A stretch of 40,016 nucleotides of DNA, taken from contig NZ_JAMXRU010000019.1 in the NCBI RefSeq assembly GCF_024124745.1, forward strand, positions 1-40,016. The letters run 5' to 3'. This DNA is from Aeromicrobium sp. CnD17-E. GTDB taxonomy: Bacteria; Actinomycetota; Actinomycetes; Propionibacteriales; Nocardioidaceae. Made by a program: the position numbers and the translations under genes. The notes beneath the pieces were generated by a model, which saw only the letters and a program-made list of their open reading frames with translations, was not told where the DNA came from and ran no database searches. Shown here one piece after another: positions 3,610 through 36,295 of this stretch. The first letter of the stretch is position 1; every line of letters begins with the position of its first letter.

Positions 3610-3639
3610 GCGGGCGGCGCTGGCACTAGGCTCGGCGTC

Positions 3640-4281
3640 ATGCACGTCCACGTCGCCGACCACCCGCTCGTCTCCCACAAGCTCACGGTGCTGCGCGACG
3701 CGTCCACCGACTCCCCCACGTTCCGTCGGCTCGCGGACGAGCTGGTGACGCTGCTGGCCTACGAGGCCACGCGCGACGTCCGCGTCGAGACGGTGCAGGT
3801 GACGACGCCTGTTGCGCAGGCACAGGGCGTCCGGCTCGCCGACCCGCGTCCGCTGGTCGTGCCGATCCTGCGCGCGGGCCTGGGCATGCTCGAGGGCATG
3901 CAGCGACTGCTGCCGACGGCCGAGGTCGGCTTCCTCGGGATGGTGCGCAACGAGGAGACGCTCGAGGCCGACACCTACGCCGAGCGGCTGCCTGACGACC
4001 TGTCCGGGCGCCAGTGCTACGTGCTCGACCCGATGCTCGCGACCGGCGGCAGCCTCGCCGCCGCCATCCACTTCCTGGTGAAGCGCGGGGCCGACCACAT
4101 CACCGCCGTGTGCCTGCTCGCCGCCCCGGAGGGCATCGAGCGGATCGAGCGCGAGATGGCGGAGGTCGGCGTGCCCGTCACCCTCGTCGTCGCCGGTCTC
4201 GACGAGCGCCTCGACGAGAACGGCTACATCGTCCCCGGTCTCGGCGACGCCGGCGACCGGCTGTACGGCGTCGCCGACTGA
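3640..4281 (+). CDS. upp: Uracil phosphoribosyltransferase
   Basis: Converts uracil and PRPP to UMP in pyrimidine salvage; cytosolic. The 213-residue product matches the usual length (about 208-210). The N-terminus [16 protein letters not shown] is highly conserved in the family, as are [14 protein letters not shown], the PRPP-binding loop [14 protein letters not shown] near residue 130, and the C-terminal uracil-binding segment [16 protein letters not shown]. The ATG at 3640 is the only sensible start, since the conserved N-terminus begins there. No strong ribosome binding site is seen before it. A small membrane-protein gene begins 1 base after the stop, so the two are probably co-transcribed. 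Confidence 0.97.
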
Positions 4282-4282
4282 C

Positions 4283-4885
4283 GTGGCCGTCACGCAGGAG
4301 CTCCGTCCGGGGCCGTGGGGGTGGGCCGAGCGTCGCCGTCGCATCGCGGCGTCCGGTGTGGTGCTGGCCGTGGCCGTCGGACTGCTGCTGCTGGCGGGTC
4401 GCGGCACGGGCCTGCTGGGCGTGCTGCTGATCGCGGTCCCGACCGTCGTCGTGACGGTGCCGCCGATCCTGCTCTACGAGCGACTCGTCTACCAGCGCGA
4501 GCGCCTGGTGATCACGGCGCGCACGCTCGAGATGTACCGCGGCGACCGGCTGCTCCACCGCCTCGACCGCACCGCACCGATCCGGGCCCTGCGGTTCCGG
4601 CTGTCGGCGTCGGGCCACCCGTTCGGGCTGGCGAAGCTGCTGCTGCACGACGGTCGCGACAACGTGCGGCTGGCGAGCGACCGGTGGCTCGTCCGGCACG
4701 AGCAGCTCCTCACCGCCCTCGGCGTCGAGGCACCCACCGTCGACCACCGCCAGGCGCAGCAGCTGGTGCCGGACGCCTTCCCGCTGTGGGAGCGCCGCCC
4801 CAACCTCGTCGCGGGCCTCACCGTGCTCGGCCTGTTGGTCGCGATCGTGGCCGTCCCTGTCGTCGTGGCGCTCCTCACCGCCTGA
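4283..4885 (+). CDS. Small membrane protein, paralogue of the next gene
   Basis: I do not recognise a named family. The 200-residue product has two hydrophobic segments close together (about residues 23-65), a central soluble part of about 100 residues (VITARTLEMYRGDRLLHRLD, then LLLHDGRDNVRLASDRW) and a final membrane segment (LTVLGLLVAIVAVPVVVALL). Soluble beta-rich parts between membrane helices are common in bacterial PH-like membrane proteins; that is only a suggestion. The GTG start is 1 base after the upp stop. The downstream gene has the same layout, with short alignable motifs (YE/ELVLVRRER, VVVTAESVEWWRG), so the pair probably arose by duplication. Confidence 0.8.
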   Translation: MAVTQELRPGPWGWAERRRRIAASGVVLAVAVGLLLLAGRGTGLLGVLLIAVPTVVVTVPPILLYERLVYQRERLVITARTLEMYRGDRLLHRLDRTAPIRALRFRLSASGHPFGLAKLLLHDGRDNVRLASDRWLVRHEQLLTALGVEAPTVDHRQAQQLVPDAFPLWERRPNLVAGLTVLGLLVAIVAVPVVVALLTA

Positions 4886-4947
4886 TCAGCAGGGACGTCC
4901 GGCCAATCGGCTGCGGCGACGACCGCGGACGTGCCAGGGTGTGCGCC

Positions 4948-5607
4948 ATGACCGAGCCGGGTCCTGACGCGGACGCCACGGCGCTCGTGCTGCGGCCCCT
5001 GGGCTGGCGCGAGGCCGACGGCGTGGCGCGACTGTGGCGGGACCTGCTGGTGATGTTCCTCCCTCTGCTGCCATTCGCCCTCCTCGCCGGGCTCTTCGGC
5101 GAGCACCATCCGGCGGTCCTCGCCCTCGTCCTGGCCTGCGTGCTGCTCATCCTGGTCGTCTACGTCCTCGAGCTGGTCCTGGTGCGCCGGGAACGCGTGG
5201 TCGTCACGGCGGAGTCGGTCGAATGGTGGCGCGGACGCCGCCTCCGGGCCAGCCTGCGTCGGGGGCCTTCGCTGCGTGCCGCGCGCTACGTGCCGTGGCC
5301 GCTCGGCCGGTCCTTGGGGCTGATCCACCTCGCTGTCTCCGACGGCACGACCGGGTTCAGGCTCTGCGACGCACGGTGGATCGCCCGGTTCGAGACGATC
5401 GTGCTGGCAGCGCAGGTGACGGCACCTCGACTCACCCCAGCGCGGGCACGCCGGCGCATGCCGGAGTGCTTCACCGCCGTCGAGCACCTCCTCGACGCGC
5501 TCCGCGCGCAGGGCTCGACCCGGGTCGCGGTGGGTGTCGTCGTGCTCGTGTCAGCGAGCCTGGTCGCCGGCTACCTGGCCGGGGCCCTCACCGGCGCCGA
5601 GCCGTGA
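4948..5607 (+). CDS. Small membrane protein, paralogue of the preceding gene
   Basis: Product of 219 residues with no recognised name. Two adjacent membrane helices (LLVMFLPLLPFALLAGLF and VLALVLACVLLILVVYVLELVLV) are followed by a charged soluble section starting RRERVVVTAESVEWWRGRRL and a last helix near the C-terminus (VAVGVVVLVSASLVAGYLAGAL). Helix placement and the RERLVITARTLEMYRG-like stretch match the gene before it, 62 bases upstream. The ATG at 4948 was preferred to earlier in-frame positions, which overlap the previous gene and encode low-complexity Arg-rich sequence. Confidence 0.78.
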   Translation: MTEPGPDADATALVLRPLGWREADGVARLWRDLLVMFLPLLPFALLAGLFGEHHPAVLALVLACVLLILVVYVLELVLVRRERVVVTAESVEWWRGRRLRASLRRGPSLRAARYVPWPLGRSLGLIHLAVSDGTTGFRLCDARWIARFETIVLAAQVTAPRLTPARARRRMPECFTAVEHLLDALRAQGSTRVAVGVVVLVSASLVAGYLAGALTGAEP

Positions 5608-5685
5608 GCGACGCCGGTGCCGCGACCTGATCCCACGCCGCACCGTTCGGCTTGCGCCGACCCTGGACTCGGCCACGCTGGTCAG

Positions 5686-7152
5686 GTGAGCGAGGACCCG
5701 GTCGACACCCACGAGGACCGACCGACCACCTCGGACGAGCCGAACCCGGCGCGCTGGCGGATCCTCGCGGTCACCCTCGTCGTCGGCTTCATGTCGCTCC
5801 TGGACGTCACCATCGTCAACGTCGCGATCCCCTCGATCCAGGAGGGGCTCGACACGTCGGCCTCGACCGTGCAGTGGGTGGTCTCCGGCTACGCGCTCAC
5901 GTTCGGCCTGACCCTCGTGGCCGGCGGACGCCTCGGCGACGCCTACGGGCGCCGACGCCTCATGCTGATCGGCCTGGCCGGGTTCGTCGCGTCGAGTGCC
6001 GCGGTCGGGCTCGCTCCCACCGCCGAGCTGGTCGTCGTCGCGCGGCTGCTCCAGGGCGCGTCAGCCGGGCTCCTCACGCCCCAGAGCTCGGGCCTCATCC
6101 AGCAGCTGTTCTCCGGCGCCGAAAGGGGCCGCGCGTTCGGCTACTTCGGCCTCACCGTCTCACTCGCGTCGGCCACCGGGCCGCTCCTCGGCGGCCTCGT
6201 CATCGGCCTCGTCGGCGAGGACCTCGGCTGGCGGCTGGTGTTCCTCGTCAACGTGCCCATCGGCGTGGTCGCCGCGATCGCCGTCGCCCGCATGGTCCCC
6301 GGACGCGAGGACGACAGCACGCCCGGCCGCATCGACACCCTCGGCGCGGCGCTTCTTGGGGTGTCCGTGCTCTGCCTGCTCTACCCGCTCGTCAGCCTCG
6401 AGTCGGGGGCGCGCTGGCCGCTCGCACTGCTCGTCGGCGTGCCGGTGTTCGCGTGGGCGTTCGTGCGCTGGGAGCACCGCGAGAAGCGGCTCGGGCACGA
6501 TCCCCTGCTCGACCTCGACCTGCTGCGCCGCCTCCCCGGGTACGGCAACGGGCTGCTCGTCGGCACCGTCTACTTCACGGGCTTCACCGGAGTGTTCCTG
6601 GTCGCGTCGGTGTGGCTGCAGGACGCGCGCGACGTCAGCGCGCTGCACGCCGGTCTGCTGCTCACGCCGTTCGCCCTCGGGTCGGCGATCACCTCCCCGC
6701 TCGCCGGACGCCTGGTCAGCACGGTCGGTCGACCACTGACCGTCATCGCGCTCGGCGTCATGATGGTCGGCGTCCTCGGTGCCGCGCTGGTGGCACCCGG
6801 GCGCCCCACCGAGGATCTCTGGTGGGCGCTCTCCCCGTTCCTGCTGCTGGCCGGTCTCGGCGGCGGCGCCGTCGTGTCGCCGAACATCACGCTGACCTTG
6901 CAGGAGGTGCCGCCGCGGATGGGTGGCGCGGCCGGCGGGGCCCTGCAGACGGGCCAGCGCATCGGCTCCTCGCTCGGCGCGGCCCTGCTGGCCACGACCT
7001 ACCAGGTGGTCGCGGGACGGTCCGACGGCGACGCCGGCATCCAGGTCTCGCTGCTCGTCGCGCTCGTCGTGCTGGCGCTCGCCCTCGCGGCGGCCCTGCT
7101 CGCCTGGCGCACCTCGCGACGCAGCGGTCCCTCCTCCGCACCACACGCCTGA
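5686..7152 (+). CDS. MFS multidrug exporter, DHA2 family (14 TM)
   Basis: Proton-driven efflux permease of the EmrB/QacA type, 488 residues in the inner membrane. Visible family motifs are LDVTIVNVAIPSIQ in helix 1 (the motif characteristic of 14-helix drug/H+ antiporters), GRLGDAYGRRRLMLIG (motif A, cytoplasmic loop 2-3) and a GPLLGG element (motif C, antiporter). The GTG at 5686 gives a short acidic N-terminus (SEDPVDTHEDRP) before helix 1; a longer frame upstream would put unlikely residues in front. The substrate cannot be inferred. The stop codon lies in a 12-base element (TGATGGGAATCA, 7150-7161) that recurs at 13.3 kb. A second, distantly related DHA2 exporter is at 34.8-36.3 kb. Confidence 0.93.
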   Translation: MSEDPVDTHEDRPTTSDEPNPARWRILAVTLVVGFMSLLDVTIVNVAIPSIQEGLDTSASTVQWVVSGYALTFGLTLVAGGRLGDAYGRRRLMLIGLAGFVASSAAVGLAPTAELVVVARLLQGASAGLLTPQSSGLIQQLFSGAERGRAFGYFGLTVSLASATGPLLGGLVIGLVGEDLGWRLVFLVNVPIGVVAAIAVARMVPGREDDSTPGRIDTLGAALLGVSVLCLLYPLVSLESGARWPLALLVGVPVFAWAFVRWEHREKRLGHDPLLDLDLLRRLPGYGNGLLVGTVYFTGFTGVFLVASVWLQDARDVSALHAGLLLTPFALGSAITSPLAGRLVSTVGRPLTVIALGVMMVGVLGAALVAPGRPTEDLWWALSPFLLLAGLGGGAVVSPNITLTLQEVPPRMGGAAGGALQTGQRIGSSLGAALLATTYQVVAGRSDGDAGIQVSLLVALVVLALALAAALLAWRTSRRSGPSSAPHA

Positions 7153-7181
7153 TGGGAATCATGCCCAGGTAGAGTCGACCC

Positions 7182-7976
7182 ATGGACGCCGAGGCACGCT
7201 CTCACGTCGACGCACTCTGGTCCGCCGGCGACTACGCCCTCCTCGCCGCACGGCTCGAACCGGCGGCGCACACCGCCGCCGCCCGGGTCGGCGACGGCCA
7301 CGGACGTCACGCCCTCGACGTCGCCGCGGGCACCGGGTCGCTGGCGCAGGCGCTCGCGGAGCGCGGCTGGCGCACCGCCGCGGCCGACATCTCCACCCGT
7401 CTGGTCGAGGAGGGGCGGCACACGTGCGCGGCCGCCGGCCTCGAGGTCGGCTGGCACGTAGCACCCCTCGACGAGCTCCCCGGCGAGCCGGGGTCCCTCG
7501 ACCTCGTCGCGTCGTCGTTCGGCATGATCTTCGCCCCCGACCCCTCGGCCGCCTTGGCCGAGAGCCGCCGCGTGCTCCGCCCCGGCGGCGCTCTCGTGCT
7601 GACGACGTGGCCGCACGACGGCTACCTGGCGCACATGACCGCGGTGATGGGCACCTTCCTGCCGCCCGGGGCGCCGGTCCTGGCGCCGTTCCTCTGGGGC
7701 GACGCCGACGTCCAGCGCGCATGGCTCGACCCCTGGTTCACCGACGTCGAGGTCACGACGCACCGACTGCCCTGGCAGTTCGACGACGTCGACACGGCCA
7801 TCGGCTTCCTGTTCGACGCGTCGCCCGGTCACCTGGCTGCCGCGCGTGCGGTCGGCGACCGGGTCGAGGAGCTGAGGTCGGCCGTCGCCGACCATCTCGT
7901 CGAGGTCAACGGTTCACCCGGTCGGGTCGACCTCGAGCTCGACTACCTGCTGACGCACGCCGTCGTCCGACCGTGA
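7182..7976 (+). CDS. Class I SAM-dependent methyltransferase
   Basis: Product of 264 residues with the methyltransferase motif I ALDVAAGTGSLAQALAERG (about residues 44-62), the acidic end of strand 2 (AADIS), and SLDLVASSFGMIFAPDP followed by ESRRVLRPGGALVLTTW, the pattern of UbiE/Methyltransf_11 enzymes. It should transfer a methyl group from S-adenosylmethionine to a small molecule, but the substrate is unknown. The ATG at 7182 is the first start after the MFS gene. The last codons overlap the start of the GTPase gene (GTGA, 7973-7976), so the two are translationally coupled. Confidence 0.9.
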   Translation: MDAEARSHVDALWSAGDYALLAARLEPAAHTAAARVGDGHGRHALDVAAGTGSLAQALAERGWRTAAADISTRLVEEGRHTCAAAGLEVGWHVAPLDELPGEPGSLDLVASSFGMIFAPDPSAALAESRRVLRPGGALVLTTWPHDGYLAHMTAVMGTFLPPGAPVLAPFLWGDADVQRAWLDPWFTDVEVTTHRLPWQFDDVDTAIGFLFDASPGHLAAARAVGDRVEELRSAVADHLVEVNGSPGRVDLELDYLLTHAVVRP

Positions 7977-9004
7977 CCCCGCCCGCCACCGTCCCCGTCG
8001 TCGCCCTCACCGGTAGCCTCGGGAGCGGCAAGACGACGATCCTGAACCACCTGCTCGCCCACCGGGGCGGACGTCGGGTCGGCGTGCTCGTAAACGACTT
8101 CGGCGCCGTCGACGTCGACGCGCTGCTCGTCGACGCCGGCTCGGCGGCCACCCTCTCGCTGGCGGGCGGGTGCGTATGCTGCCGGGTCGACGACGACACC
8201 CTCGACTCGACGCTGGAGCAGCTGACGTCGCCGCGGGCCGGGCTCGACCTGGTGCTGGTCGAGTCCAGCGGGGTGGCCGACCCGACGACGCTCGCCGCTC
8301 GCCTCCACCGCGCGGTGCGCCACCCGGGGCAGGTCGGCGGGCTGCTGCACGTGCTCGACGCGCGCGCGTGGTCCGACGACGACACGGTGCTCGACCCCGC
8401 CGCGCTGGCCCGCGCCGACCTCGTCGCGCTCACGAAGACCGACCTGCCCGGCTCCGTCCCGGTCGGCGAGGCGCGACGTCGGCTCGAGCCGATGCTGCGC
8501 ACCGGGGTGCCCGTCGTCGACGCCCCGCACGGCGCCGTCGACCCCGACCTCTTCGCCGACGCCTCGGCGCCGCTGGACGACGGCCCCCGTCAGCTGTCCC
8601 TCGCGGAGGCCCTCCCCCTCCCCGGCGGCCACCAGCACGTCCACGCGAGCACCTGGGAGCACGACGGGCTCGTGCACCCGCGTCGTCTCGCCGAGCTGCT
8701 CGACGGCGGGCTGCCGTCGGCCTACCGGCTGAAGGGCGTCGTCCGGCTCGACGTGCCGTGGGGTGCACGCTGGTGGACGGTGCACCGGGTCGGCGGGCTG
8801 CCGCGCGTGACCCCGGCACCGAGGCCCGCGCCGACGAGCCGCCTCGTGGCCCTCGGCCCGACGCTCGACGAGCGCGCGGCGGAGGTCGCCCTGACGCACG
8901 TCGGGCGCGACCTCCAGGAGGAGGTCGCGCCCGACGACCACGCGGCGCTCATGCGCTGGGTGCCCGACGACCTGCGCCCGGAGTGGGCGCGAGTCGAGGG
9001 CTGA
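7973..9004 (+). CDS. COG0523/CobW-family metallochaperone GTPase
   Basis: G3E-family P-loop GTPase of 343 residues; relatives deliver zinc, cobalt or other metals to client proteins. Walker A GSLGSGKT is at residues 14-21, the invariant metal-binding CxCC is GGCVCC (Cys67, 69, 70), Walker B-like LVLVESSGVADP follows, and LTKTD replaces the usual NKxD base-recognition motif. The CobW C-terminal domain begins at a His-containing stretch (GGHQHVHAS) and continues through YRLKGVVRLD. The GTG at 7973 overlaps the methyltransferase stop. It converges, with only 7 bases between, on a zinc-sensor operon encoding a His/Cys-rich protein, which supports a zinc-related role. That functional link is inference. 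Confidence 0.9.
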   Translation: MTPPATVPVVALTGSLGSGKTTILNHLLAHRGGRRVGVLVNDFGAVDVDALLVDAGSAATLSLAGGCVCCRVDDDTLDSTLEQLTSPRAGLDLVLVESSGVADPTTLAARLHRAVRHPGQVGGLLHVLDARAWSDDDTVLDPAALARADLVALTKTDLPGSVPVGEARRRLEPMLRTGVPVVDAPHGAVDPDLFADASAPLDDGPRQLSLAEALPLPGGHQHVHASTWEHDGLVHPRRLAELLDGGLPSAYRLKGVVRLDVPWGARWWTVHRVGGLPRVTPAPRPAPTSRLVALGPTLDERAAEVALTHVGRDLQEEVAPDDHAALMRWVPDDLRPEWARVEG

Positions 9005-9011
9005 GCCCGGC

Positions 9012-9332
9012 TCAGGCGGCGTGCTTGCAGGTGCTGCAGGTGCAGTCGCTGCACACGCAGTTGGCGCAGCTGTCCGAGCAGTGGGCGCAGGAGCACGTGT
9101 TGTGGTTGCAGGTCGCGCACGTGCAGTCGGTGCAGGTGCAGGTCGCACAGCTGTCGCTGCAGTGCGCACAGGAACAGGTGGCGCACTCGTCGTAGTGGCC
9201 GTCGTGCTCGCGGTGCACGTGGCCGTCGTGGAGGTAGTCGACGTGGTCCTCGTGGACGACGGCGTCGTGGCCGCAGCCCGGGCCGTGCGTGTGGTCGTGC
9301 TTCTCGGCCTCGCGGTGGTCGATGACGGTCAT
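9012..9332 (-). CDS. His/Cys-rich metal-binding protein with duplicated cysteine block (metallothionein-like)
   Basis: Small cytosolic protein of 106 residues with 20 Cys and 16 His. The first half is His-rich (HDHTHGPGCGH, then HDGHVHREHDGHYDE, residues 12-49) and resembles short actinobacterial proteins often found next to zinc regulators. The second half contains two 23-residue copies, 53-75 and 80-102, each CSCAHCSDSCAxCxCxDCTCxTC, identical at 19 of 23 positions. Such CxC/CxxC density indicates a metal-thiolate cluster, so a buffering or sequestering role for zinc or a related metal is likely. The ATG at 9332 overlaps the repressor stop (ATGA), and AGGAG lies 8 bases upstream. I know of no named family that has the duplicated C-terminal block. 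Confidence 0.88.
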   Translation of the reverse strand: MTVIDHREAEKHDHTHGPGCGHDAVVHEDHVDYLHDGHVHREHDGHYDECATCSCAHCSDSCATCTCTDCTCATCNHNTCSCAHCSDSCANCVCSDCTCSTCKHAA

Positions 9333-9646
9333 GGGTGGTTCTCCTGGGTGTGCTGGAAGGCGTCGAGGAGCACGTGGGCCACGTGCTCGTCGGTGAGGGA
9401 GTAGACGACCTCGCGTCCGCGGCGCTCGCCCGAGACGAGACGTGCGGTGCGCAGGATCCTCAGGTGCTGCGACACGAGCGGCTGCGACCGCCCGGTCCAC
9501 TCGACGAGGTCGCCGACGGTCTGCTCCCCCGCGCACAGGCGGTGCACGAGAGCGGCGCGCAGCGGCGTCGACATCGCGTCGAAGAGTGCAGCGACGGCGG
9601 CGTAGGCGTCGATGTCCCCCCGGCCGACGTCACCCCGCTCACTCAT
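9329..9646 (-). CDS. ArsR/SmtB-family zinc-responsive repressor
   Basis: Winged-helix transcriptional repressor of 105 residues. The DNA-recognition helix is in SQPLVSQHLRILRTARLVSGERRGREVVYSL. In helix alpha5 the spacing Asp86-x-His88 ... His99-x-x-Glu102 reproduces exactly the D/H/H/E zinc site of SmtB, whereas the cysteine of the alternative alpha3 site (ELCVGDL) is Thr here (EQTVGDL). This argues for a zinc sensor that releases DNA on binding metal. ATG 9646 was chosen because AAGGA is 7 bases upstream; an in-frame ATG at 9676 would add MHELLYKDVC but lies directly after the TTGACA box. It is the first gene of a two-gene operon with the His/Cys-rich protein and is probably autoregulated. 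Confidence 0.9.
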   Translation of the reverse strand: MSERGDVGRGDIDAYAAVAALFDAMSTPLRAALVHRLCAGEQTVGDLVEWTGRSQPLVSQHLRILRTARLVSGERRGREVVYSLTDEHVAHVLLDAFQHTQENHP

Positions 9647-9650
9647 GCAC

Positions 9651-9681
9651 ACATCCTTATATAGCAATTCATGCATGTCAA
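9651..9681 (-). promoter_or_regulatory. Promoter/operator region of the smtB-like operon
   Basis: An AT-rich island in an otherwise extremely GC-rich window. On the minus strand it contains TTGACA (9681-9676) and TATATA (9663-9658), but only 12 bases apart, shorter than a standard promoter. GCATGAATTGC and the downstream GTGTGCATGA share TGCATGA as a direct repeat. The repressor probably binds here; I see no perfect 12-2-12 SmtB operator. Confidence 0.5.
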
Positions 9682-9709
9682 CCTCATCCGTCGTCCCTTC
9701 TCCCCCGGA

Positions 9710-9751
9710 GCACGACGGCCGGCCGCCCCTTGGGGCGACCGGCCGTCGTGC
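9710..9751 (-). terminator. Strong hairpin after pntB
   Basis: GCACGACGGCCGG pairs with CCGGCCGTCGTGC and CGCCCC with GGGGCG around a TT turn, with one unpaired base on each side. It begins 10 bases after the pntB stop and separates pntAB from the smtB-like operon on the same strand. There is no T-run after it, as is common in actinobacteria. Confidence 0.75.
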
Positions 9752-9760
9752 ACCTCCGAC

Positions 9761-11149
9761 TCACAGCGCGCGCAGGATGTCCTCCACGCGGTCCTTCGCG
9801 TCGCCGAACAGCATCTGGCTGTTCTCCCGGAAGAACAGCGGGTTCTGCACCCCCGCGTACCCGGCGGCCATCGAGCGCTTGAACACCACGACGTTCGACG
9901 CCTCCCACACCCGCAGCACCGGCATGCCGGCGATCGGGCTGGTCGGGTCCTCCGCGGCGGCCGGGTTCACGGTGTCGTTGGCGCCGATGACCAGCACCAC
10001 GTCGGTGTCCGCGAGGTCGTCGTTGACCTCGTCCATCTCCAGGACGATGTCGTACGGGACCTTCGCCTCGGCGAGGAGCACGTTCATGTGCCCGGGCAGG
10101 CGGCCGGCGACCGGGTGGATGCCGAACCGCACGTCGACGCCGCGCTCGCGCAGCTTGCGGGTCAGGTCGGCCACGGGGTACTGCGCCTGCGCCACGGCCA
10201 TCCCGTAGCCCGGGGTGATGACGACGCTCGACGCGTCCTTCAGCAGCTCGGCCACACCCTCGGCGTCGACCTCGCGGTGCTCGCCGTAGTCCGTCGCCTC
10301 GCCGGCCGGGGCCTCGATGCCGAAGCCGCCCGCGATCACCGAGATGAACGAGCGGTTCATCGCCTGGCACATGATGTAGCTCAGGTACGCACCCGAGGAG
10401 CCCACGAGCGCTCCGGTGACGATCAGCAGGTTGTTGCTCAGCAGGAAGCCGGCCGCGGCCGCAGCCCAGCCCGAGTAGCTGTTGAGCATCGACACGACGA
10501 CCGGCATGTCGCCGCCGCCGATGGAGGCGACGAGGTGCCAGCCCAGGGCGAGGGCGAGCGCCGTCACGAGGATCAGCAGCCAGATGTTCGGGCTCGCCAC
10601 GAACACGACGGTCAGCACGAAGAACAGCACGAGCGCGCCGATGTTGAGGTAGTTCTTGCCCGGCAGCACGAGCGGGGACGACTTGATCCGTGCGCTCAGC
10701 TTCAGGTACGCGACGATCGACCCGGTGAACGTCACCGCGCCGATGAAGACGCCCACGAAGACCTCGGCCGAGTGGATCCGCTCGAGCGACTCCAACGGGT
10801 ACACCGGGTGCTCGAGGTAGCCGTTCCAGCCGACGAGCACGGCCGCCAAGCCGACGAAGGAGTGCAGGAGCGCGATCAGCTCCGGCATGCCGGTCATCTC
10901 GACCTCGCGGGCCCGCCAGATGCCGATGCCCGCGCCGATCGCGATCGCGCCGACCAGCAGGACGACGCCGACCGTCTCGGCGTCCTCGACGGCCAGCACG
11001 ATCGTCGCGACCAGGGCGATGGTCATGCCGGCGATGCCGTAGGCGACGCCGGAGCGTGCCGTCTCGTGCTTGCTCAGCCCGGCGAGGCTGAGGATGAACA
11101 GCAGGGCGGCGACGATGTACGCCGCGGTCGCGATGCTCTGTGCGGTCAC
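9761..11149 (-). CDS. pntB: NAD(P) transhydrogenase subunit beta
   Basis: Membrane subunit with the NADP(H)-binding domain III of the proton-translocating transhydrogenase, which reduces NADP+ with NADH using the proton-motive force. The 462 residues match the E. coli subunit's length. The N-terminal half is a bundle of membrane helices starting [18 protein letters not shown]. The C-terminal half carries domain [39 protein letters not shown], and [16 protein letters not shown] with [26 protein letters not shown] and [16 protein letters not shown] chose the GTG at 11149, 5 bases after the pntA stop. The frame extends upstream but inside pntA. It works only together with PntA. Confidence 0.96.
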
Positions 11150-20763: not shown

Positions 20764-20974
20764 CTTGGGGTGGGGCCCCACCCCAGGTGTGACTCCCCCA
20801 CCCAGCGCTGGGGTGGGAGGCACCGTTTGGGTGGGGCCCCACGCAAAGGCGCACTTCCCCACGCAAGCGACGGCCGCCGGCGCACGTTGGGGTGGGGCCC
20901 CACGCAAAGGTGCACTTCCCCACGCAAACGACGGCCGAAAGTGCGCGTTTGCCTGGGGCCCCACGCAAACGCGC
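20764..20974. repeat. Four GGGGCCCC-centred palindromes at exact 61-bp spacing
   Basis: The block G/C-TGGGGCCCCAC begins at 20770, 20831, 20892 and 20953, giving three intervals of exactly 61 bp. Each is the centre of a 20-32 bp palindrome; the last, 20943-20974, starts GCGCGTTTG and ends CAAACGCGC with a single mismatched pair. The second and third units also share the 14-mer ACTTCCCCACGCAA and GCGACGGCCG/ACGACGGCCG in the spacer, so the whole 61 bp is the repeat. It fills the 234-base gap between the convergent SDR and ACT-protein genes. Two more units occur at 31804-31889. Confidence 0.9.
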
Positions 20975-28674: not shown

Positions 28675-30593
28675 CGGGATCCCCACCGGGTCCGACGTCG
28701 GGGCCGCTGCCGATCTCCGACCACGGCCTGGTCGGGGACCTGCGCACGGCCGCCCTCGTCGGCACCGACGGGACCATCGGCTGGTTCTGTCCCGGGCGCT
28801 TCGACGCGCCGAGCGTGTTCGCGTCGGTGCTCGACGACGAGCGCGGCGGGGCCTGGGAGCTCGAGCCGGTCGACGGGTCGGTGCGGTCGCAGCAGTTCTA
28901 CTTCCCCGACACCGCGATCCTCGCCACCCGCTTCCTCACCGACGACGGCGTCGTCGAGGTGCACGACTTCATGCCCGTGCTCCGCGCGGAGGACCCCGAC
29001 CACCGCCAGCGCCTCGTACGTCGCGTCGTGGCCGTCCGCGGACGCTCCGTGGTCCGCACCCGGGTGGCGGCCCGCCCCCACTACGGGCGCACGACGCCCG
29101 ACCTCGAGCCGCTCGACGTCGCGTCGGGCCACGGGGTCTCCCTCACCTGCGAGGGCCGGGGTGACGACCCGGGCGTGCGCATGGCGTTCGGCGCGACGGT
29201 GCCGCTCGAGGTCGATGCGGGCGACGTGACCGCCGAGTTCACGCTCGAGGAGGGCGAGCGGGCCCTGTTCGTGCTGGAGGTGCTCGACCCGCACGCCGAC
29301 ACCCCCACCGACGGCTGCGACGACACCGACACGTCGGCGCTGTTCGAGGCGACGTCGCAGTTCTGGCGCAGCTGGCTGTCGCAGTCGACGTACGCCGGAC
29401 GCTGGCGCGAGACGGTGCACCGCTCCGCCATCACCCTCAAGCTGCTCACCCACGAACCCAGCGGCGCGGTCGTCGCCGCCCCCACGACGAGCCTGCCGGA
29501 GACGATCGGCGGCACCCGGAACTGGGACTACCGGTACGTGTGGATCCGCGACGCCGGCTTCAGCCTGTACGCGCTGCTGCGCCTGGGGTTCACGTCGGAG
29601 GCGAACGCGTTCACGCGCTGGCTGTCGGAGCGGCTCGGCGAGGAGCGCGACGACGAGGCCGAGCTCGGACCGCTGCGCGTGCTCTACGACATCGACGGAT
29701 CGGCCCCCACCGACGAGCACGAGCTCGACCACCTGGCGGGCTACCGCGACTCGCGTCCGGTGCGCGTCGGGAACGCGGCCGTCGACCAGCTGCAGCTCGA
29801 CATCTACGGCGAGGTCATCGACGCCGTCTACCTGTTCGACAAGTACGGTCCGGGCATCAGCCACGACGCGTGGAACGACCTGCGGCGCGTGCTCGACTGG
29901 GTGCTCGAGCACTGGGACGCCGACGACGCCGGCATGTGGGAGATCCGCGGCGACGTGCGCGCCCACACCACGAGCCGGCTCATGTGCTGGGTCGCGGTCG
30001 AGCGGATGATCCGCATGGCCCGGCGCCGCGGGCTCCCCGGCGACGTCGGCGCGTGGTCGCGGGTGCGCGACGAGATCCACGAGCGGATCCTCAGCGACCA
30101 CTGGGACCCGCACCACGAGACGTTCCTCATGGCCGAGCACGACCCGGACGCCGACCCCGACGCCGACCCGGTGCTCGACGCCGGCGTGCTGCTGATGCCG
30201 ATGGTGAAGTTCTGCTCGCCCGTCGACCCGCGGTTCCTGTCGACGTTGGCCGCCGTCGAGGAGCAGCTCGTCGCCGACAGCCTCGTCTTCCGCTACGACG
30301 TCCACGCCGCGCCCGACGGCATCGAGGACGCCGACGCCGACGGCGACGGAGTGGGCGACGGCGAGGGCACCTTCAGCCTCTGCTCGTTCTGGTACGTCGA
30401 GGCCCTCACCCGCGCCGGCCGTCTGCGCGAGGCCGAGGTCGCGCTGGAGAAGATGTTCACCTACGCCAACCACCTCGGCCTCTACGCCGAGCAGATCGGC
30501 GCCACCGGCGACCAGCTCGGCAACTTCCCCCAGGCCTTCACCCACCTGTCCCTCATCAGCGCCGCCATCAACCTCGACCGCGCGCTGGCTTGA
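28671..30593 (+). CDS. Glycoside hydrolase family 15 (trehalase/glucoamylase-like)
   Basis: Cytosolic enzyme of 640 residues with no signal peptide. The N-terminal beta-rich domain starts [27 protein letters not shown]; the (alpha/alpha)6 barrel includes [20 protein letters not shown] (from Asn284), [26 protein letters not shown] (a candidate catalytic Glu region) and [20 protein letters not shown] near residue 605. Actinobacterial GH15 enzymes of this form include trehalases as well as alpha-glucosidases, so trehalose is a plausible substrate; that is inference. A short Asp-rich insert ([13 protein letters not shown]) and DADADGDG are unusual. Its start overlaps the zwf stop, linking glucose release with glucose 6-phosphate oxidation. 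Confidence 0.92.
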
Positions 30594-30596
30594 CGC

Positions 30597-31171
30597 GGGG
30601 CCTGTGCTGGCCGGTGCGCTGGCTGCGGGGGTCTCGGCCTGCTGCTGCGCGGCCTGCGGGGGTCTCGTCCTGCTGGTGCGCTGCTTCGGCTGGCGCTGGG
30701 AGTGGTCTCCGAGAGAGCCTCGACCGGCAGCGGGCCCGGGGCTGGCTTCGGGTCTCGGGGTCTGGTCTGGGCCTGCGGGTGACGCACGATTCTTCTTTTC
30801 TGCGTTCTCGGGCCAAGGTTCTGCGTTCGCGCGTTCCATCGGTGGATCTGCAACCGCAGGAGCGCCCCTGCGGTTGATGATCCGCCGATAGCGGGCGTCA
30901 TGCCGGAACGATTCTGCCTTGACGTGGACCGTTCCACATGAACGCAGAATCCTGCCCCCACGCCGAGCACCAATCCACAGCCCGAGACCCCAGACCAGCG
31001 CCGCCGCCAGCCGCCCGGTCGAGGCCTTTCGGAGACCAGACACAGCGCCAGCCGAGGCAGCGCACCAGCGAGCACGAGCCTCCCGCGGCAGCGCACCAGC
31101 AAGCACAGACCCACCGAGGCAGCGAACCAACGAGCCGAGACCCCTGAGGCCCCGCCCCAGCAAGACCCCCG
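30597..31171. repeat. Long imperfect palindromic element, copy 1
   Basis: This nearly 600-base gap has no credible gene. The left arm has ~31-base tandem units (GGGGGTCTCG...CTGCTGGTGCGCTGC) and the right arm carries their reverse complements (GGCAGCGCACCAGC repeated). Matching arm segments include CTGGTGCGCTGC, TCGGCTGGCGCTG, GTGGTCTCCGA and CCTCGACCGG against their complements at about 31000-31080. The centre has inverted GAACGCAGAA/TTCTGCGTTC motifs and a 50-base hairpin at 30839-30888 whose arms start TCGGTGGATC and end GATCCGCCGA. The whole unit is homologous to 34286-34830. The boundaries are approximate. Confidence 0.85.
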
Positions 31172-31190
31172 AGATGCCAGGATCTCCCGC

Positions 31191-31766
31191 ATGGGCACCC
31201 CGACGACGACGCACGCAGGCTCGACGACGAGACGCCTCGTCGCGGCCGTCGCCGTCCTCCTCGCGCTCGCGGGCTGCGGGGCTCCCGGGGGCCCTCGCTA
31301 CGACATCCCTCACGACGCGGAGTCGGGCGGGCAGACGTTGCGCCAGGCGCAGGCTGCCGTCTCGAGCATCCCCGGCCTGACGATCGACCTGGCCGGGGGC
31401 GAGCCGCCGAACATCAAGGGCAACACCGGCTACGACGTCCGCGTCACGGTCGCGCCGGGGTACCGGATCGTCGACGGGCCCGCGCTGGTCACCTTCCTCG
31501 TGGAGTCGGCGTGGTCGGTGCGCACCGGATACCTGCCGAACACGCAGATCACGGTCAGCGTCGAGACCGGCGACGGACCCGAGTTCGAGGTCGACGCGGC
31601 AGCGGCCGAGGCCGGGTGGGTGGAGCGCGGCGAACCCGTGCCGGGACAGACCGCCTTCAGCCTCGTCAACGTCCGCACGGACGACGGCTCACCCGGCCGC
31701 GAACGGTTGGGCGACTGGCCCGGCGACGTCCCCGACGTCCCGCGCGACGTCACCGCCCGGCGCTGA
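31191..31766 (+). CDS. Hypothetical lipoprotein
   Basis: Function not recognised. The 191-residue product has a signal peptide (TTRRLVAAVAVLLALAGC; lipobox LAGC, Cys29) and a mature domain (RYDIPHDAESGGQTLRQAQA, then GYDVRVTVAPGYRIVDGPALVTFLVESAWSV) that looks like a small alpha/beta domain of the kind found in other actinobacterial lipoproteins. The ATG at 31191 follows AGGATCTCCCGC. Immediately upstream is the long palindromic element copy 1, so its promoter lies inside or beyond that element. Downstream are two 61-bp repeat units and the convergent helicase gene. Confidence 0.82.
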   Translation: MGTPTTTHAGSTTRRLVAAVAVLLALAGCGAPGGPRYDIPHDAESGGQTLRQAQAAVSSIPGLTIDLAGGEPPNIKGNTGYDVRVTVAPGYRIVDGPALVTFLVESAWSVRTGYLPNTQITVSVETGDGPEFEVDAAAAEAGWVERGEPVPGQTAFSLVNVRTDDGSPGRERLGDWPGDVPDVPRDVTARR

Positions 31767-31803
31767 TCCGCGCGGCCCCCGTCCGCTTCGCGTCCGCCGG
31801 CCC

Positions 31804-31889
31804 GTTTGCGTGGGGCCCCACGCAAACCCGCTCCCCCCACCGCAACCATGCGTCGTTCTTGCACGTTCGGGTGGGGCCCCACGCAAACG
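31804..31889. repeat. Two GGGGCCCC-centred palindromes, again 61 bp apart
   Basis: GTGGGGCCCC begins at 31810 and 31871, exactly 61 bp apart, the period seen at 20770-20953. The first is the centre of a perfect 24-base palindrome (31804-31827, arms GTTTGCGTGGGG and its complement); the second spans 31864-31889 with two mismatched pairs. The spacer keeps a degenerate CTCCCCCCACCGCAA element. They lie between the convergent lipoprotein and helicase genes. Confidence 0.88.
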
Positions 31890-31910
31890 CGCGGGTGGAG
31901 GCGGGTCGGG

Positions 31911-34037
31911 TCAGCGGCGACGCGAACGGAGCGAGTCCGACAGGATGCCGACGAGCGCCTCGAGCTGGACGTCGGTGACGTCGACCTCGGTGTCCTCGCC
32001 GTCGAGGGCGCGCGCGGCGAGCCCGGCCTTGCTGTCGATGAGCTCCACAATGCGCGTGTCGATCGTCTGCGAGGCGATGATGCGCCACGCGGTGACCGGC
32101 TCCTCCTGGCCGATGCGGTGCACGCGGTCGATCGCCTGCATCTGCTCGGCGTCGGTCCACGACAGCTCCGCGAGGACGACGTTCGACGCCACCTGCAGGT
32201 TGATGCCGACACCGGCCGCCGTGAGCGAGCAGACGATGATCTGCGTGCCCGGGTCGTTCTGGAACGCGTCGATCGCCTTCGCCCGGGCCGCGGCGGTCTG
32301 GTCGCCGCGGATCGTCGAGTAGCCGATGCCGCGCTCCTCGAACGCCTTCTGCGCGGCGTCCATGACGTCGAGGTGCTTCGCGAAGAACACGACCTTGCCG
32401 ACGCTGCGCGCCAGCTGGGCGGTGTAGTCGGCGGCCAGACCGGCCTTGGCCTGGCCGATGCGACGCACCATCGAGAACACGTTCTCGCCGGTCGACTCGT
32501 TGGCCTCCTCGCGCTCCCACGCGGCGACCTTGCGGACGAGGTCGAGGTCGAGCACCTCGGCCACCGGGTGACCGGCCTCGACGCGCGCGGCGGCCGCCCG
32601 GTCGTAGCGGGCGACGAGCCGGCGGGCCAGCTCGGCCTCGGCGGCGCGGATGGAACGGCCGGCCTCGCCGTCGAGCTCGACGGGCATGTCGGCGATGCGG
32701 CGGGCGGGGATGTCGGCGGCGACGTCGATCTTGCGACGGCGGACGATGCCCATGTCGATGACGGCCTGCCGGGCGGCGGGGAAGAAGCCGGGGTCGAGCG
32801 GCGTCAGGCCGGTCTCGTCGAGCCGGTGCATCAGCTCGGGCAGCGGCTTCTTCTCGTCGATCCAGCCGAGGAACTGCCAGATGGCGCGGAAGTCCTCGAC
32901 GTCGTTGATGAGCGGGGTACCGGTGAGCGCCATCATGAGCGGTCGCGCGGTGCGGCTGCGGATGCGGTCGGCGATGCGGAGCACGTGGCGCGACCGCTGC
33001 GACGACGTGTTCTTGATGAAGTGGGCCTCGTCGAGCACCATGCCGCGGAAGCCGAGGTCGCCGAGCCAGCCGGCGTGACGGTCGAGGATCTCGTAGTTGA
33101 CGACGACGATGTCGGCGAACGCGTCGATGTCGTCACCGTTGCCGTGCACGACCGTGACGGCGCGCTGCGGCGTCCACAGCCCGACCTCGCGCGCCCAGTT
33201 CGCCTTGACGACGTTCGGCACGACGACGAGCAGCGGGTACGCCTGCGCGGCGTGCGCGGCGAGCAGCGACTGCGCGGTCTTGCCGAGGCCGGGCTCGTCG
33301 GCGAGCAGGAACGTGCGGTGTCCCTCGGCGGCGGACGACACGAGCTGGGCCTGGTGGCGCATCAGCTCGGGTCCGCGGTGGTTCAGCGGCAGGGGCTCGG
33401 GGAGCTCCATGCAGGCGGGCGCGCCGGCGGCGGCCCGCTCGAACGACGACAGCAGAGGGCCGATGAGCTCCCACGTCGCGAGTCGGCTCGGCCCGGTGCG
33501 GGGCGGCGGCTCGGGGGAGAACTCCGGCGGCATGAAGGGGTTCGCAAGCTGGCGCGCGACGACGGAGCGGGGCACGACGGAGCGGTCGACCCGCAGCTCG
33601 GTGGTGGAGGCGGGCGGCTCGGCGGCCAGCTCGAGGCCGGCGGCTGCCATCAGCTCACGCTTGAGGGCGAGGGTCGAGCTGGAGATCTCGGCGTCGTCGG
33701 TGAGCAGCATGAGCAGCGCGGGCTCGCGCGTCGCGGTCTTGGCCAGGATGGTGGCGACGCCGTCGAGGCGCTTGAGCTGGTCGGCGCGCTGCGGCTCGGT
33801 GAGGTCGGGGTCGGTCTTCACGCGGGCGCGCTCCTCGCGCACCAGCAGGCCGACGGCCTGGAAAGTGGCGCGGGTCGACGCGGTGACGCGTCGTCGCTGC
33901 ACGGCGTTCTCGACCTCGCGCACCGCCTTCGCGAGCACGGGCATGAGTCCGGTGTCGTCGTCGTGCTTCTTGCGCCGGGCCCCGCTGCCGTTCTGGCGTG
34001 CCTTCTGCGGGTTCCGCTGCTGCGTTCTCGTGGCCAA
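31911..34037 (-). CDS. SNF2-family DEAD/DEAH helicase (SMARCAL1-like)
   Basis: ATP-dependent DNA translocase of 708 residues. The N-terminal 215 residues are helical and unassigned. The SNF2 ATPase core follows: LADEPGLGKTAQS (Walker A, about 246), VVVPNVVKANW (motif Ia), VLDEAHFIKN (DEAH, about 330), ALTGTPLINDVEDF (motif III), then HELICc with VVFFAKHLDVMDAA, IIVCSLTAAGVGINLQ and QAIDRVHRIGQ (motif VI, about 634). The brevity of the core and the LTAAGVGINLQ form resemble the SMARCAL1/HepA-like branch. I chose TTG 34037 because GGAGGAGGAG lies 4 bases upstream; ATG codons inside are too late. It is convergent with the lipoprotein and bracketed by the palindromic elements. Confidence 0.92.
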   Translation of the reverse strand: MATRTQQRNPQKARQNGSGARRKKHDDDTGLMPVLAKAVREVENAVQRRRVTASTRATFQAVGLLVREERARVKTDPDLTEPQRADQLKRLDGVATILAKTATREPALLMLLTDDAEISSSTLALKRELMAAAGLELAAEPPASTTELRVDRSVVPRSVVARQLANPFMPPEFSPEPPPRTGPSRLATWELIGPLLSSFERAAAGAPACMELPEPLPLNHRGPELMRHQAQLVSSAAEGHRTFLLADEPGLGKTAQSLLAAHAAQAYPLLVVVPNVVKANWAREVGLWTPQRAVTVVHGNGDDIDAFADIVVVNYEILDRHAGWLGDLGFRGMVLDEAHFIKNTSSQRSRHVLRIADRIRSRTARPLMMALTGTPLINDVEDFRAIWQFLGWIDEKKPLPELMHRLDETGLTPLDPGFFPAARQAVIDMGIVRRRKIDVAADIPARRIADMPVELDGEAGRSIRAAEAELARRLVARYDRAAAARVEAGHPVAEVLDLDLVRKVAAWEREEANESTGENVFSMVRRIGQAKAGLAADYTAQLARSVGKVVFFAKHLDVMDAAQKAFEERGIGYSTIRGDQTAAARAKAIDAFQNDPGTQIIVCSLTAAGVGINLQVASNVVLAELSWTDAEQMQAIDRVHRIGQEEPVTAWRIIASQTIDTRIVELIDSKAGLAARALDGEDTEVDVTDVQLEALVGILSDSLRSRRR

Positions 34038-34265
34038 CAGGCTCCTCCTCCACGGCCGGACGTCTGCCTCGGCCGGCGGCGGACGGGTCGTGCCCGTCAC
34101 CGCGACAGGGCGTACGGCGACTCGGCCGCCAGTGATCTCGGCGGCGGGTCGGTGGCTGAGCACCCACCCACGAGTGCGGGCCGTACGGCTCCTGCTCCGG
34201 CAAGTGTAGACGAGAGGGGTTCCTTTGGCGCGTTCTGCCCAGTTGTGGCGCCGGATCCACGTGGT
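34038..34265 (-). other. Region upstream of the helicase
   Basis: No credible gene. TACACT on the minus strand (34208-34203) is a fair -10 box, about 165 bases before the TTG start, but no good -35 is at standard spacing. It is bounded by a perfect hairpin CCCGACGGG-N6-CCCGTCGGG at 34266-34289 at the edge of palindromic element copy 2. Confidence 0.4.
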
Positions 34266-34285
34266 CCCGACGGGGTGGTGCCCGT

Positions 34286-34830
34286 CGGGTCTCGTCCTGC
34301 TGGTGCGCTGACTGCGGTGGTCGTGACCTTGCTGGTGCGCTGCCTCGGCCTTCGCTGGTGGTGGTCTCCGAAAGGGGCCTCGACCGGCAGCGGGCCTGGA
34401 GGTGACTTCGGGTCTCGGGGTCTGGCCCGGGCCCGCCCATGGACGCACGATTCTTCGTTTCTGCGTCCTGGGGCCCAAGAGTCTGCGTTCGCGTGTCCTA
34501 TCGGTGGATCTGCAACCGCAGGAGCGCTTCTGCGGTCGCGGATCCACCGACAGGGGGGATCGCGGCCGAACAAAGATGCGTTCGCGACGGGATCCCGTGA
34601 CAAACGCAGAAGCCTTGGACTTCGGACGCACGAACGCAGAATCCTGCGCCCACCCCGTGCCCCACCCGCAGCCCGAGACCCCAGACCAGTGCCGCCGCCA
34701 ACCGCCCGGTCAAGGCCCTTGCGGAGACCACCCCCAGCGAAGGCCGAGGCAGCGCACCAGCAACCCCAGGCCCCTGCGGCAGCGCACCATCAGGACGAGA
34801 CCCCCCCGCCTGCGCACCAGCGAGGGTCAG
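34286..34830. repeat. Long imperfect palindromic element, copy 2
   Basis: This element fills most of the ~800-base gap between the helicase and the MFS gene. Left arm: GGGTCTCGTCCTGCTGGTGC at 34286, TTGCTGGTGCGCTGCCTCGG, CCTTCGCTGG and GGTGGTCTCCG, then CCTCGACCGG. The right arm repeats these as reverse complements (about 34700-34815), with roughly 100 bp alignable at each end. The core hairpin 34501-34550 starts TCGGTGGATCTGCAACCGC and ends GATCCACCGA; its first 27 bases equal those of copy 1. GAACGCAGAA motifs recur in both arms. Orientation is the same as copy 1. A 9-bp-arm hairpin (34266-34289) sits at the left edge. Confidence 0.85.
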
Positions 34831-34834
34831 ACCC

Positions 34835-36295
34835 TCAGTGCACGACCTCCCCCGACCCGCTCGCCTTGCGCAGGAAGGGGGAGAAGGCGACGAGCACGAG
34901 GCTGAGGATCGCGCCGACGAGGAACGCGCGCTGCACGCCGTCGACGAAGGCCGGACCCTCGCCGAGCCCGGCGTCGACGCCGCTCGCGGAGACGACGGTC
35001 ATGATGGTGATGAACAGGGCTGCGCCGGCCGCGCCGGCCACCTGCTGCAGGCTGCCGACGACGGCGCTCGCGTAGGAGTACAGACGAGGCTCGACCGACC
35101 CGAGGGCGGTCGTCATCAGCGGCGTGAACGTGGCCGACAGACCCAGCATCAGCACCAGGTTGGCGCCCACCAGCCACGCGACCGACGTGTCCGCGTCGAC
35201 GTCGACCAGCAGCCACAGGCCCGCCGACACGAGCAGCGAGCCAGGCACGACGAGCACGCGCGGACCGAGCCGGTCGTAGAGCCGGCCGACGAACGGTCCG
35301 GTGACACCCATGACCACCCCGCCGGGCAGGGTGATGAGTCCGGTCTCGAGCGCGCTGAGGCCGAGCGTCTGCTGCGCGAAGAGCGGCAGCAGGAGGAACG
35401 AGCCGAACATGGCCGCCATGGCGATGAGCATCGCACCGGTGGCGATGCGGAACTGGCCCGACGTGAACACGCGCAGGTCGAGCAGGGCCCGGTCGTCACG
35501 CTGCAGCTGCAGCTGGCGGGCGACGAAGGCGGCCAGGGCCACGCCGCCGACGACGAACGGCAGCCAGGTGGGCGTCCCCGACGACCCCTGCGCGTGCTCG
35601 CCGATGCCGACGAGTCCGTACACGAGGCCGCCGAGGCCGAGCGCCGAGAGCGGCACCGACACGACGTCGATCCTCTGGTCGCCCGTGGCTGCCACGCTCA
35701 CCACGTACCGGGCGCCCACCACGAGGGCCGCGAGCGCGACGGGTGCGACGACGCCGAAGATCCAGCGCCACCCGAAGTGGTCGAGCACGAATCCCGAGAG
35801 CGTCGGGCCGAGCGCGGGGGCGACCGCGATGACGACCGTGATGTTGCCCATCATCGCGCCGCGCCGGGCGACGGGCACGATCGTCATGACCGTCGTCATG
35901 AGCAGCGGCAGCATCACCGCGGTGCCCGACGCCTGCACGACCCGCGCGACCAGCAGCATCGCGAAGCCCTGCGACGCGAACGCGAGCACCGTGCCCGCCG
36001 TGAACAGCGACATCGCCGCGACGTAGAGCGTGCGGGTCGCGACGCGCTGGATCAGGTAGCCGGTGAGCGGGATGACGACGGCCATCGTGAGCATGAACGC
36101 GGTGGTCAGCCACTGGCCCGTCGACGGCGGCACGCCGAGGTCGTCCTGGAGCACCGGAACCGCCACGCTCATGACCGTCTCGTTGAGGATCACCACGAAC
36201 GACGCCACCAGCAGCGTGCCGATGACGAGCAGGTGCTCGCGCGGCAGCGGCGGCGTGTCCGTCGTCGCGGTCGGGTCGGTCGTGGCGGTGCTCAT
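34835..36295 (-). CDS. MFS multidrug exporter, DHA2 family (second)
   Basis: 14-helix drug/H+ antiporter of 486 residues. Features: LLVASFVVILNETVMSVAVP (helix 1, with Asn-Glu in place of LDVTIVNVA, as in the LmrB/EmrB-like branch), GQWLTTAFMLTMAVVIPLTGYL, LARVVQASGTAVMLPLL and the antiporter motif VAPALGPTLSGFVLDHFGWRWIF. The C-terminus ends KASGSGEVVH. ATG 36295 follows directly from the Thr-rich start STATTDPTATTD. It is only distantly related to the exporter at 5.7 kb. Its stop is 5 bases from the right end of palindromic element copy 2, which may serve as its terminator. Confidence 0.93.
   Translation of the reverse strand: MSTATTDPTATTDTPPLPREHLLVIGTLLVASFVVILNETVMSVAVPVLQDDLGVPPSTGQWLTTAFMLTMAVVIPLTGYLIQRVATRTLYVAAMSLFTAGTVLAFASQGFAMLLVARVVQASGTAVMLPLLMTTVMTIVPVARRGAMMGNITVVIAVAPALGPTLSGFVLDHFGWRWIFGVVAPVALAALVVGARYVVSVAATGDQRIDVVSVPLSALGLGGLVYGLVGIGEHAQGSSGTPTWLPFVVGGVALAAFVARQLQLQRDDRALLDLRVFTSGQFRIATGAMLIAMAAMFGSFLLLPLFAQQTLGLSALETGLITLPGGVVMGVTGPFVGRLYDRLGPRVLVVPGSLLVSAGLWLLVDVDADTSVAWLVGANLVLMLGLSATFTPLMTTALGSVEPRLYSYASAVVGSLQQVAGAAGAALFITIMTVVSASGVDAGLGEGPAFVDGVQRAFLVGAILSLVLVAFSPFLRKASGSGEVVH

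Follow-up and report, generated by a model that had tools for sequence, protein, structure and literature searches.

A clade-restricted family of long palindromic intergenic elements in Aeromicrobium, tentatively interpreted as protein-binding DNA sites

Two homologous elements in one window

The window, a stretch of 40,016 nucleotides from contig NZ_JAMXRU010000019.1 of Aeromicrobium sp. CnD17-E, contains two long noncoding elements, e1 and e2, whose positions and parts are listed in Table 1. The gene 5' of e1 encodes a protein with GH15 and trehalase-like N-terminal domains, and the gene that begins 15 bp beyond the end of e1 was judged by eye to encode a putative lipoprotein, with no Pfam match. 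A first-pass annotation of the window had set the limits of the elements at 30597 to 31171 and 34286 to 34830; these are the right places, but the true extents are slightly larger. Its description of one element occurring twice in the same orientation holds, as e1 and e2 are 77% identical (query positions 40 to 545 of 586), with an E value of 1.7e-105.

Both elements are palindromic, as had been claimed, and fold on themselves far beyond shuffled sequences. The minimum free energy of e1 is -384 kcal/mol, compared with a mean of -275 kcal/mol for 100 shuffles (standard deviation [SD], 7.2; z, -15.2), and that of e2 is -378 kcal/mol, compared with -250 kcal/mol (SD, 6.7; z, -19.1; 100 shuffles). 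The predicted fold of each is a single long hairpin, and the apex hairpin alone, folded as DNA, has z scores of -7.9 (e1) and -6.6 (e2). The arms are built of tandem units as first described, with CTGGTGCGCTGC-type units 31 to 32 bp apart on the left and their reverse complement 30 to 31 bp apart on the right; with up to two mismatches allowed, GCAGCGCACCAGC has 20 matches in the window, including 11 in e1 and e2, where 5.3 are expected for the whole window. Both elements also contain the inner motifs TTCTGCGTTC and GAACGCAGAA and the central hairpin that had been noted for its identical start, with 28 bases (ATCGGTGGATCTGCAACCGCAGGAGCGC) the same in e1 and e2. The inner modules differ, being H1 and H2 in e1 and H1 and H3 in e2. 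A codon-usage gene caller finds no gene inside e1 or e2, consistent with the earlier reading that neither carries an open reading frame. An ordinary intrinsic terminator, already discounted in that reading, was rejected, since a short GC hairpin with a following T run is absent inside both elements.

Table 1. Coordinates of elements e1 and e2 and of their parts in the window
Feature	Position	Strand	Remarks
e1, whole element	30594..31175	+	From stop of GH15-type gene (30593) to putative lipoprotein gene (start 31191)
e1 left arm, three tandem units (start-to-start 31, 31)	30610..30684	-	
e1 left 21-bp box, 2 mismatches to CCGGTCGAGGCCCTTTCGGAG	30707..30727	-	
e1 hairpin H1 (apex)	30836..30892	.	
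e1 short palindrome H2 (GTGGACCGTTCCAC)	30924..30937	.	
e1 right box, one base shorter	31016..31035	+	By eye
e1 right arm, three tandem units (31, 31), inverted relative to left arm	31057..31131	+	
e2, whole element (start approximate)	34260..34834	+	From 5' side of SNF2-type helicase gene to stop codon of MFS gene (34835)
e2 left arm, two tandem units (spacing 32)	34299..34343	-	
e2 left box, one base longer	34367..34388	-	By eye
e2 hairpin H1 (apex)	34497..34554	.	
e2 short palindrome H3 (ACGGGATCCCGT)	34587..34598	.	
e2 right box, 2 mismatches	34706..34726	+	
e2 right arm, three tandem units (30, 30)	34749..34821	+	

A dispersed family in four genomes of the genus

Searches of the whole genome and of its relatives revealed a dispersed family restricted to 4 of the 49 genomes of the genus; the two elements first noticed are both real and are merely two of dozens of copies. 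With e1 as the query, the window's genome (G000; 3.57 Mb in 219 contigs) gave 152 matches, with 40 of 164 candidates scored. At least 56 element pieces were collected from G000, and a further match (C142:1894) lies outside these pieces. On G007, the complete chromosome of a relative, pieces of at least 120 bp merge into 61 elements. We estimate that each chromosome holds roughly 60 noncoding elements, about 1% of the genome.

The carriers of the full element are G000, G007, G019, and G039. The e1 interior, used as a query, matches 6 of the 49 genus genomes, two of them weakly (G005, with one match, and G022, with seven). Arm matches among the best 150 candidates per genome number 108 in G000, 113 in G007, 109 in G019, and 114 in G039, and the arm profile R1, a sequence-only profile of one arm built from 36 copies, has no match among the 150 candidates scored in each of G022 and G005. 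The 21-bp box CCGGTCGAGGCCCTTTCGGAG is found, with up to two mismatches, 86 times in G000, 98 times in G007, 77 times in G019 (where at least 11 boxes are exact), and 100 times in G039. At the same threshold, it has one match in 13 of 337 other genomes of the taxonomic family and none in 324, and the backward control for this box has at most one match on either strand in any genome. The core 23-mer occurs exactly in just one of 84,980 species genomes, a collection that may omit near relatives of the window's genome; this is the Propionibacteriales metagenome-assembled genome JAPLCA01, which is most likely G039. A plasmid or phage origin was rejected, as e1 has no match in plasmids or phages, and so was a viral origin, the exact box being absent from viral contigs. 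The titles and abstract openings of the top-ranked matches in the PMC open-licence literature do not describe the family. Separately, contig 1 of G022 has four H1-like cores (575516, 2396889, 2640618, and 2707123) at three mismatches, compared with one in the control; in this genome with no box or arm matches, they may be related to the apex hairpin as an older form.

Anatomy and placement between genes

From the outside to the center, an element consists of 31-bp tandem units, a box, and a mosaic of H1, H2, H3, and TTCTGCGTTC/GAACGCAGAA motifs, followed by the mirror image; the presence of H1, H2, and H3 varies between copies. Elements are mostly 350 to 870 bp long. The mean unit spacing is 31.23 bp, with 327 of 360 neighboring pairs 31 or 32 bp apart in a sample limited to pairs at 27 to 35 bp. 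A second unit sequence has a similar period, and inspection by eye (G039 tails) found some elements with one kind of unit on each side. The box varies at four letters. Preceding GGGCC, these are GAAA in 128 boxes, GCAA in 42, and GAGA in 14, with GCCA, GCGC, and AAAA once each, and GACA precedes GGGGCC twice; read from the outside to the inside, most copies of the four carriers have GAAA, GCAA, or GAGA.

No piece among 124 extends more than 40 bp into a called gene. For elements of at least 250 bp, the median distance from an element end to a stop codon is 13 bp (n = 133, with 92 at 30 bp or less) and that to a start codon is 59.5 bp (n = 96, with 13 at 30 bp or less). Elements longer than 250 bp lie between convergent, codirectional, and divergent genes in 18, 28, and 8 cases in G000 and in 18, 31, and 10 cases in G007; the excess of convergent over divergent pairs is not significant in either genome (18 versus 8, P = 0.08; 18 versus 10, P = 0.18). 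Where the gene pair is divergent (8 of 54 elements in G000 and 10 of 59 in G007), no gene 3' end adjoins the element. The origin of G007 is taken to be near coordinate 0, with dnaN, a RecF/SMC-type gene, and gyrB within 2500 to 10000.

Some elements have themselves been interrupted. Three near-identical IS30-family insertions lie inside G007 elements (L113, 3650 to 4727; L108, 3052 to 4127; L078, 4022 to 5097), and the matching G000 elements are unsplit; the one insertion that was scanned matched NF033563 with 233.8 bits (cutoff, 80). In G039, a transposase-type frame (L172, 19121 to 19466; PF01527, 29.8 bits versus 24.1) begins just past the right arm of an element and is cut off where the contig ends. 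We take it for an IS insertion or, with lower probability, for an element copy that carries a gene.

Fixed addresses and changing content

The addresses of the elements are nearly constant across G000, G007, and G039 and are partly shared with G019, a more distant carrier with a median protein identity of about 82%. Fifty-four of the 56 G000 pieces have orthologs of both flanking genes around one G007 element locus; the two exceptions are e2 and L056, the latter with no flank matches. Among 26 G039 elements of at least 120 bp, all have a flanking gene that lies beside a G007 element and 24 have both, compared with 21 (one flank) and 20 (both flanks) against the less complete G000 list. The G019 elements share a site with G007 in 7 of 20 cases and with G000 in 6 of 20. 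The windows examined from G039 (20) and from G019 (20, comprising 19 around elements and 1 at the GH15 gene) were chosen rather than random, so that site-sharing counts among the collected windows are biased, and the near-complete G007 list is the fairer reference.

The sequences at these addresses turn over. Between G000 and G007, the median identity of elements at the same address is 0.797 (43 pairs), compared with 0.723 for other pairs, and the positional partner is the top match in 8 of the 43. Judged by the best BLAST piece, the partner ranks first in 12 of 53 cases for G000 and G007 and in 1 of 24 for G039 and G007. Length differences of roughly 31 or 62 bp, from insertions or deletions, are frequent. 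In G019, L182 and L188 occupy two addresses common to G007 and are 95.4% identical over 347 bp. Against the respective G007 partners, their best pieces reach 71% (156 bp) and 67% (333 bp), and identity between the two partners is 78% (265 bp), the pattern expected of gene conversion that overwrites copies in place. Exact 45-mers are common to 109 element pairs within G000, 112 within G007, 120 within G039, and 3 within G019 (56, 64, 26, and 20 elements compared, respectively), and megablast with a 96% identity filter, which judges whole alignments, retained just three within-genome tracts of at least 60 bp.

Sites free of the element, which the first-pass annotation had thought worth seeking, were found for both window elements. 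An element is present at 3 of 28 GH15 loci (G000, G007, and G039). G019 lacks both the element and the lipoprotein gene at the e1 site, where 90 bp separate the end of the GH15 gene from the next gene, a helicase gene as judged by its last bases. In place of e2, G007 and G039 carry another inverted repeat (GGTAGGTGGCGCGCG...) following the MFS gene (by eye; L120, 7190 to 7340; L201; L202), and G019 has an apparently intact gene, of which G007 keeps a remnant resembling the end (by eye). As the site is differently occupied in G007, G039, and G019, e2 was probably gained in G000 by spacer replacement. Recent copying of e2 from another collected copy was rejected, the best match being just 83%. 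At the empty sites (those of e1 and one convergent site in G019, and that of e2 in G007 and G039), the spacer has been replaced and nothing is alignable by eye. The elements spread, by whatever process, probably mostly before G000, G007, and G039 split.

Uneven conservation within the elements

Between G000 and G007, the box has diverged by 5.9% (95% interval, 4.8 to 7.3) and the remainder of the element by 15.8%, compared with 12.6% at four-fold sites. Intermediate values were obtained for the H2 apex (7.5%), the unit core (9.0%), the GAACGCAGAA motif (10.3%), H1 (11.8%), and the H3 apex (12.0%). Windows with gaps or poor alignment were excluded from these counts, as were pairs whose flanking genes enclose a called gene, and the counts rest on motif instances picked by resemblance, with box instances up to five mismatches from the box. 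Columns conserved in at least 97% of G000 copies differ between the genomes at 3.0% and those conserved in less than 75% at 26%, a partly circular comparison in that the classes were drawn from the G000 copies also compared. Whole elements are more divergent than four-fold sites, which argues that most of the element sequence is unconstrained. In-place gene conversion can help to make the box uniform; conversion acting evenly along the element would not be expected to leave conservation uneven, but conversion starting at the box could mimic such a pattern.

Candidate function and rival explanations

We interpret the elements, tentatively and from sequence comparisons, as a clade-restricted, BIME-like family of predicted protein-binding DNA sites that may have spread in an ancestor and been retained since. 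In their conserved parts, the elements resemble docking sites for a DNA-binding protein more than an RNA, and we infer both the protein and the function of the elements. An element is a set of motifs in dyad symmetry, comprising the outer 31-bp arrays, one strongly conserved 21-bp box per side, and the central short palindromes. The motifs would be recognized as double-stranded DNA by a sequence-specific protein, and units of 31 bp, about three helical turns, could align several protein copies along the same helical face. The resulting symmetric nucleoprotein site could work in either orientation between transcription units, as a boundary, topology, or 3'-end site, in the way thought to apply to BIMEs. 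The intergenic place, fixed positions, box constraint, regular unit spacing, and unlinked halves argue for this reading, whereas gene conversion, the picking of box instances, the paired changes in H1, the unconstrained bulk, the nonsignificant convergent excess, and the elements in divergent pairs argue against it. A stronger version, in which a lineage-specific protein occupies dyad-symmetric arrays in helical phase, some 60 per chromosome and each at a fixed gene boundary, as a new kind of dispersed nucleoprotein site with content rewritten from other copies, seems rather unlikely as a whole; under it, continual rewriting would cause the whole element set to evolve together.

The main rival of the protein-site reading is that the elements are relics of a nonautonomous mobile element (MITE- or foldback-like) that spread in an ancestor and is now stuck, subject to drift and ectopic overwriting and with no host role. 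The first-pass annotation had offered a nonautonomous mobile element as one option, and the past of the family fits it, being dispersed, clade restricted, and absent at some orthologous sites, including those of e1 and e2. The few sites shared by G019 and G007, the frequent closer match to another copy at shared sites, and the L182/L188 pair point the same way. We consider this origin a serious if somewhat doubtful candidate, however: the searches made, which among transposase families covered RAYT, turned up neither a partner transposase nor an autonomous copy or a target duplication; three species keep nearly the same positions; at fixed addresses, the box has changed less than four-fold sites; and e2 has no close donor among the collected copies. 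Simple insertion with target duplication was not demonstrable at the sites compared. A search for RAYT (Y1_Tnp, PF01797) gave no match in 10 genomes, including all four carriers, whereas the control search found it in 5 of 14 known genomes; REPs or BIMEs with a RAYT were rejected on this ground in spite of the many-copy extragenic palindromes, which agrees with the earlier statement that the elements are not REPs. Genes within copies are just the IS30 insertions and the L172 frame beside an element, and with these on record an autonomous copy is still conceivable.

A large structured RNA, which had also been suggested, or a giant 3' untranslated region or terminator hairpin selected for base pairing, would account for the strong predicted folds, the elements near stop codons, and the predominance of GAAA, GCAA, and GAGA at the box loop, but the arms show none of the co-evolution that such selection entails. 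The folding energy averages -268.7 kcal/mol for native halves and -267.8 kcal/mol for halves taken from different elements (24 elements; Wilcoxon P = 0.92), evidence against a structured RNA. The arm match within and between elements is 0.782 and 0.791 in G000, 0.788 and 0.789 in G007, 0.828 and 0.818 in G039, and 0.726 and 0.731 in G019, and two-sided arm changes number 29, equal to the 29 of the control pattern, in 37 matched pairs that left out three pairs of opposite orientation. Consensus folding with RNAalifold yielded a stem of just three pairs around the box (-1.32 versus -0.16 kcal/mol; SD, 0.36; 30 column shuffles; 289 sequences); with this stem and with flanks that lack consistent pairing by eye, a GNRA-tetraloop reading of the box was rejected. 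The window gave no Rfam family at the gathering score, and the sole terminator-like match in 30400 to 35100 lies outside e1 and e2, with shuffles yielding as many. With arm match, quartet patterns, consensus folding, and chimera folding all negative, the RNA reading was rejected for the arms, and the long palindrome looks like a by-product of two inverted sets of conserved motifs. The apex hairpin behaves differently: H1 match is higher within than between hairpins (0.796 versus 0.731; 114 hairpins), and H1 switches between two forms at matching sites, with 14 paired changes versus 1 in the control. Paired change in H1 fits a dyad-symmetric site and also a hairpin or cruciform. The corresponding count is 8 versus 6 for H2, and H3 had no usable pairs. 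Overall, selection for RNA pairing appears improbable. Chromosome-wide organizing or segregation sites with positional logic, of which matS, KOPS, and parS are examples, seem more improbable still. The annotation's nucleoid- or chromosome-organizing site is possible in the sense of a DNA-binding site, and the symmetric motif arrays, the number of sites (about 60), and the poverty of the origin-proximal quarter of G007 (5 of 61 elements; 5, 21, 15, and 20 per quarter; Kolmogorov-Smirnov [KS] P = 0.003) are consistent with organization along the chromosome. However, spacing on G007 is as irregular as random (coefficient of variation, 1.13 versus 0.98), an element occurs near gyrB, about 6 kb from coordinate 0, and the scarcity near the origin may merely reflect gene organization. 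The G007 elements have no replichore strand bias, on which ground a polar segregation motif was rejected.

Relation to known repeats

Palindromes dispersed between genes are commonly attributed to the action of RAYTs or insertion sequences. Bacterial MITEs are noncoding, dispersed, and clade restricted and have inverted repeats. The elements described here share these properties but differ in their variable outer ends, in the lack of visible target duplications, and in their nearly fixed positions in three species. Foldback (FB) elements of Drosophila have long inverted repeats of tandem units, one kind of which is 31 bp; the tandem-unit inverted repeat is common to both, neither sequence relation nor mobility is seen here, and the common unit length may be chance. 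Palindromes of the ERIC and YPAL type consist of one long palindromic unit between genes and are much shorter; both kinds are intergenic palindromes, but those of the ERIC and YPAL type are not known to carry tandem arrays or a box.

BIMEs are described as composite REP structures (PMC2817692). Published accounts give REP sequences as binding sites of gyrase, IHF, and DNA polymerase I and name insertion sequences of five families other than IS30 as targeting them (PMC1525189), and another describes REPs as 20 to 40 bp long, with GTAG or CGTC tags (PMC3733652). Like BIMEs and REPs, the elements here are intergenic, mosaic, palindromic, and multicopy, vary in module number, and are targets of insertion sequences. 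Unlike REPs of the length so described, they have inverted 31-bp arrays and a 21-bp box and are far larger, and unlike RAYT-associated REPs, they have no accompanying PF01797 protein in the genomes searched. The family is a large one with no RAYT, in which addresses are kept across species, the sequence at each turns over, and one short box stays. It lends itself to testing whether repeats of this kind serve the host or are junk, and the box or the 31-bp unit is a defined bait for a candidate DNA-binding protein.

Other features of the window

A second palindrome family (GTTTGCGTGGGGCCCCACGCAAAC) is found in the window at 31800 to 31903 and 20825 to 20970, both places lying between gene ends, and is often repeated about 61 bp apart. 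Its half-site has 73 matches in G000, 77 in G007, and 27 in G039, with none in G019, G022, or G016. At 7973 to 9652, genes read from their translations as encoding a CobW-like GTPase, a small cysteine-rich protein (9012 to 9332), and an ArsR-type regulator are adjacent, a group that looks like one for metal handling.
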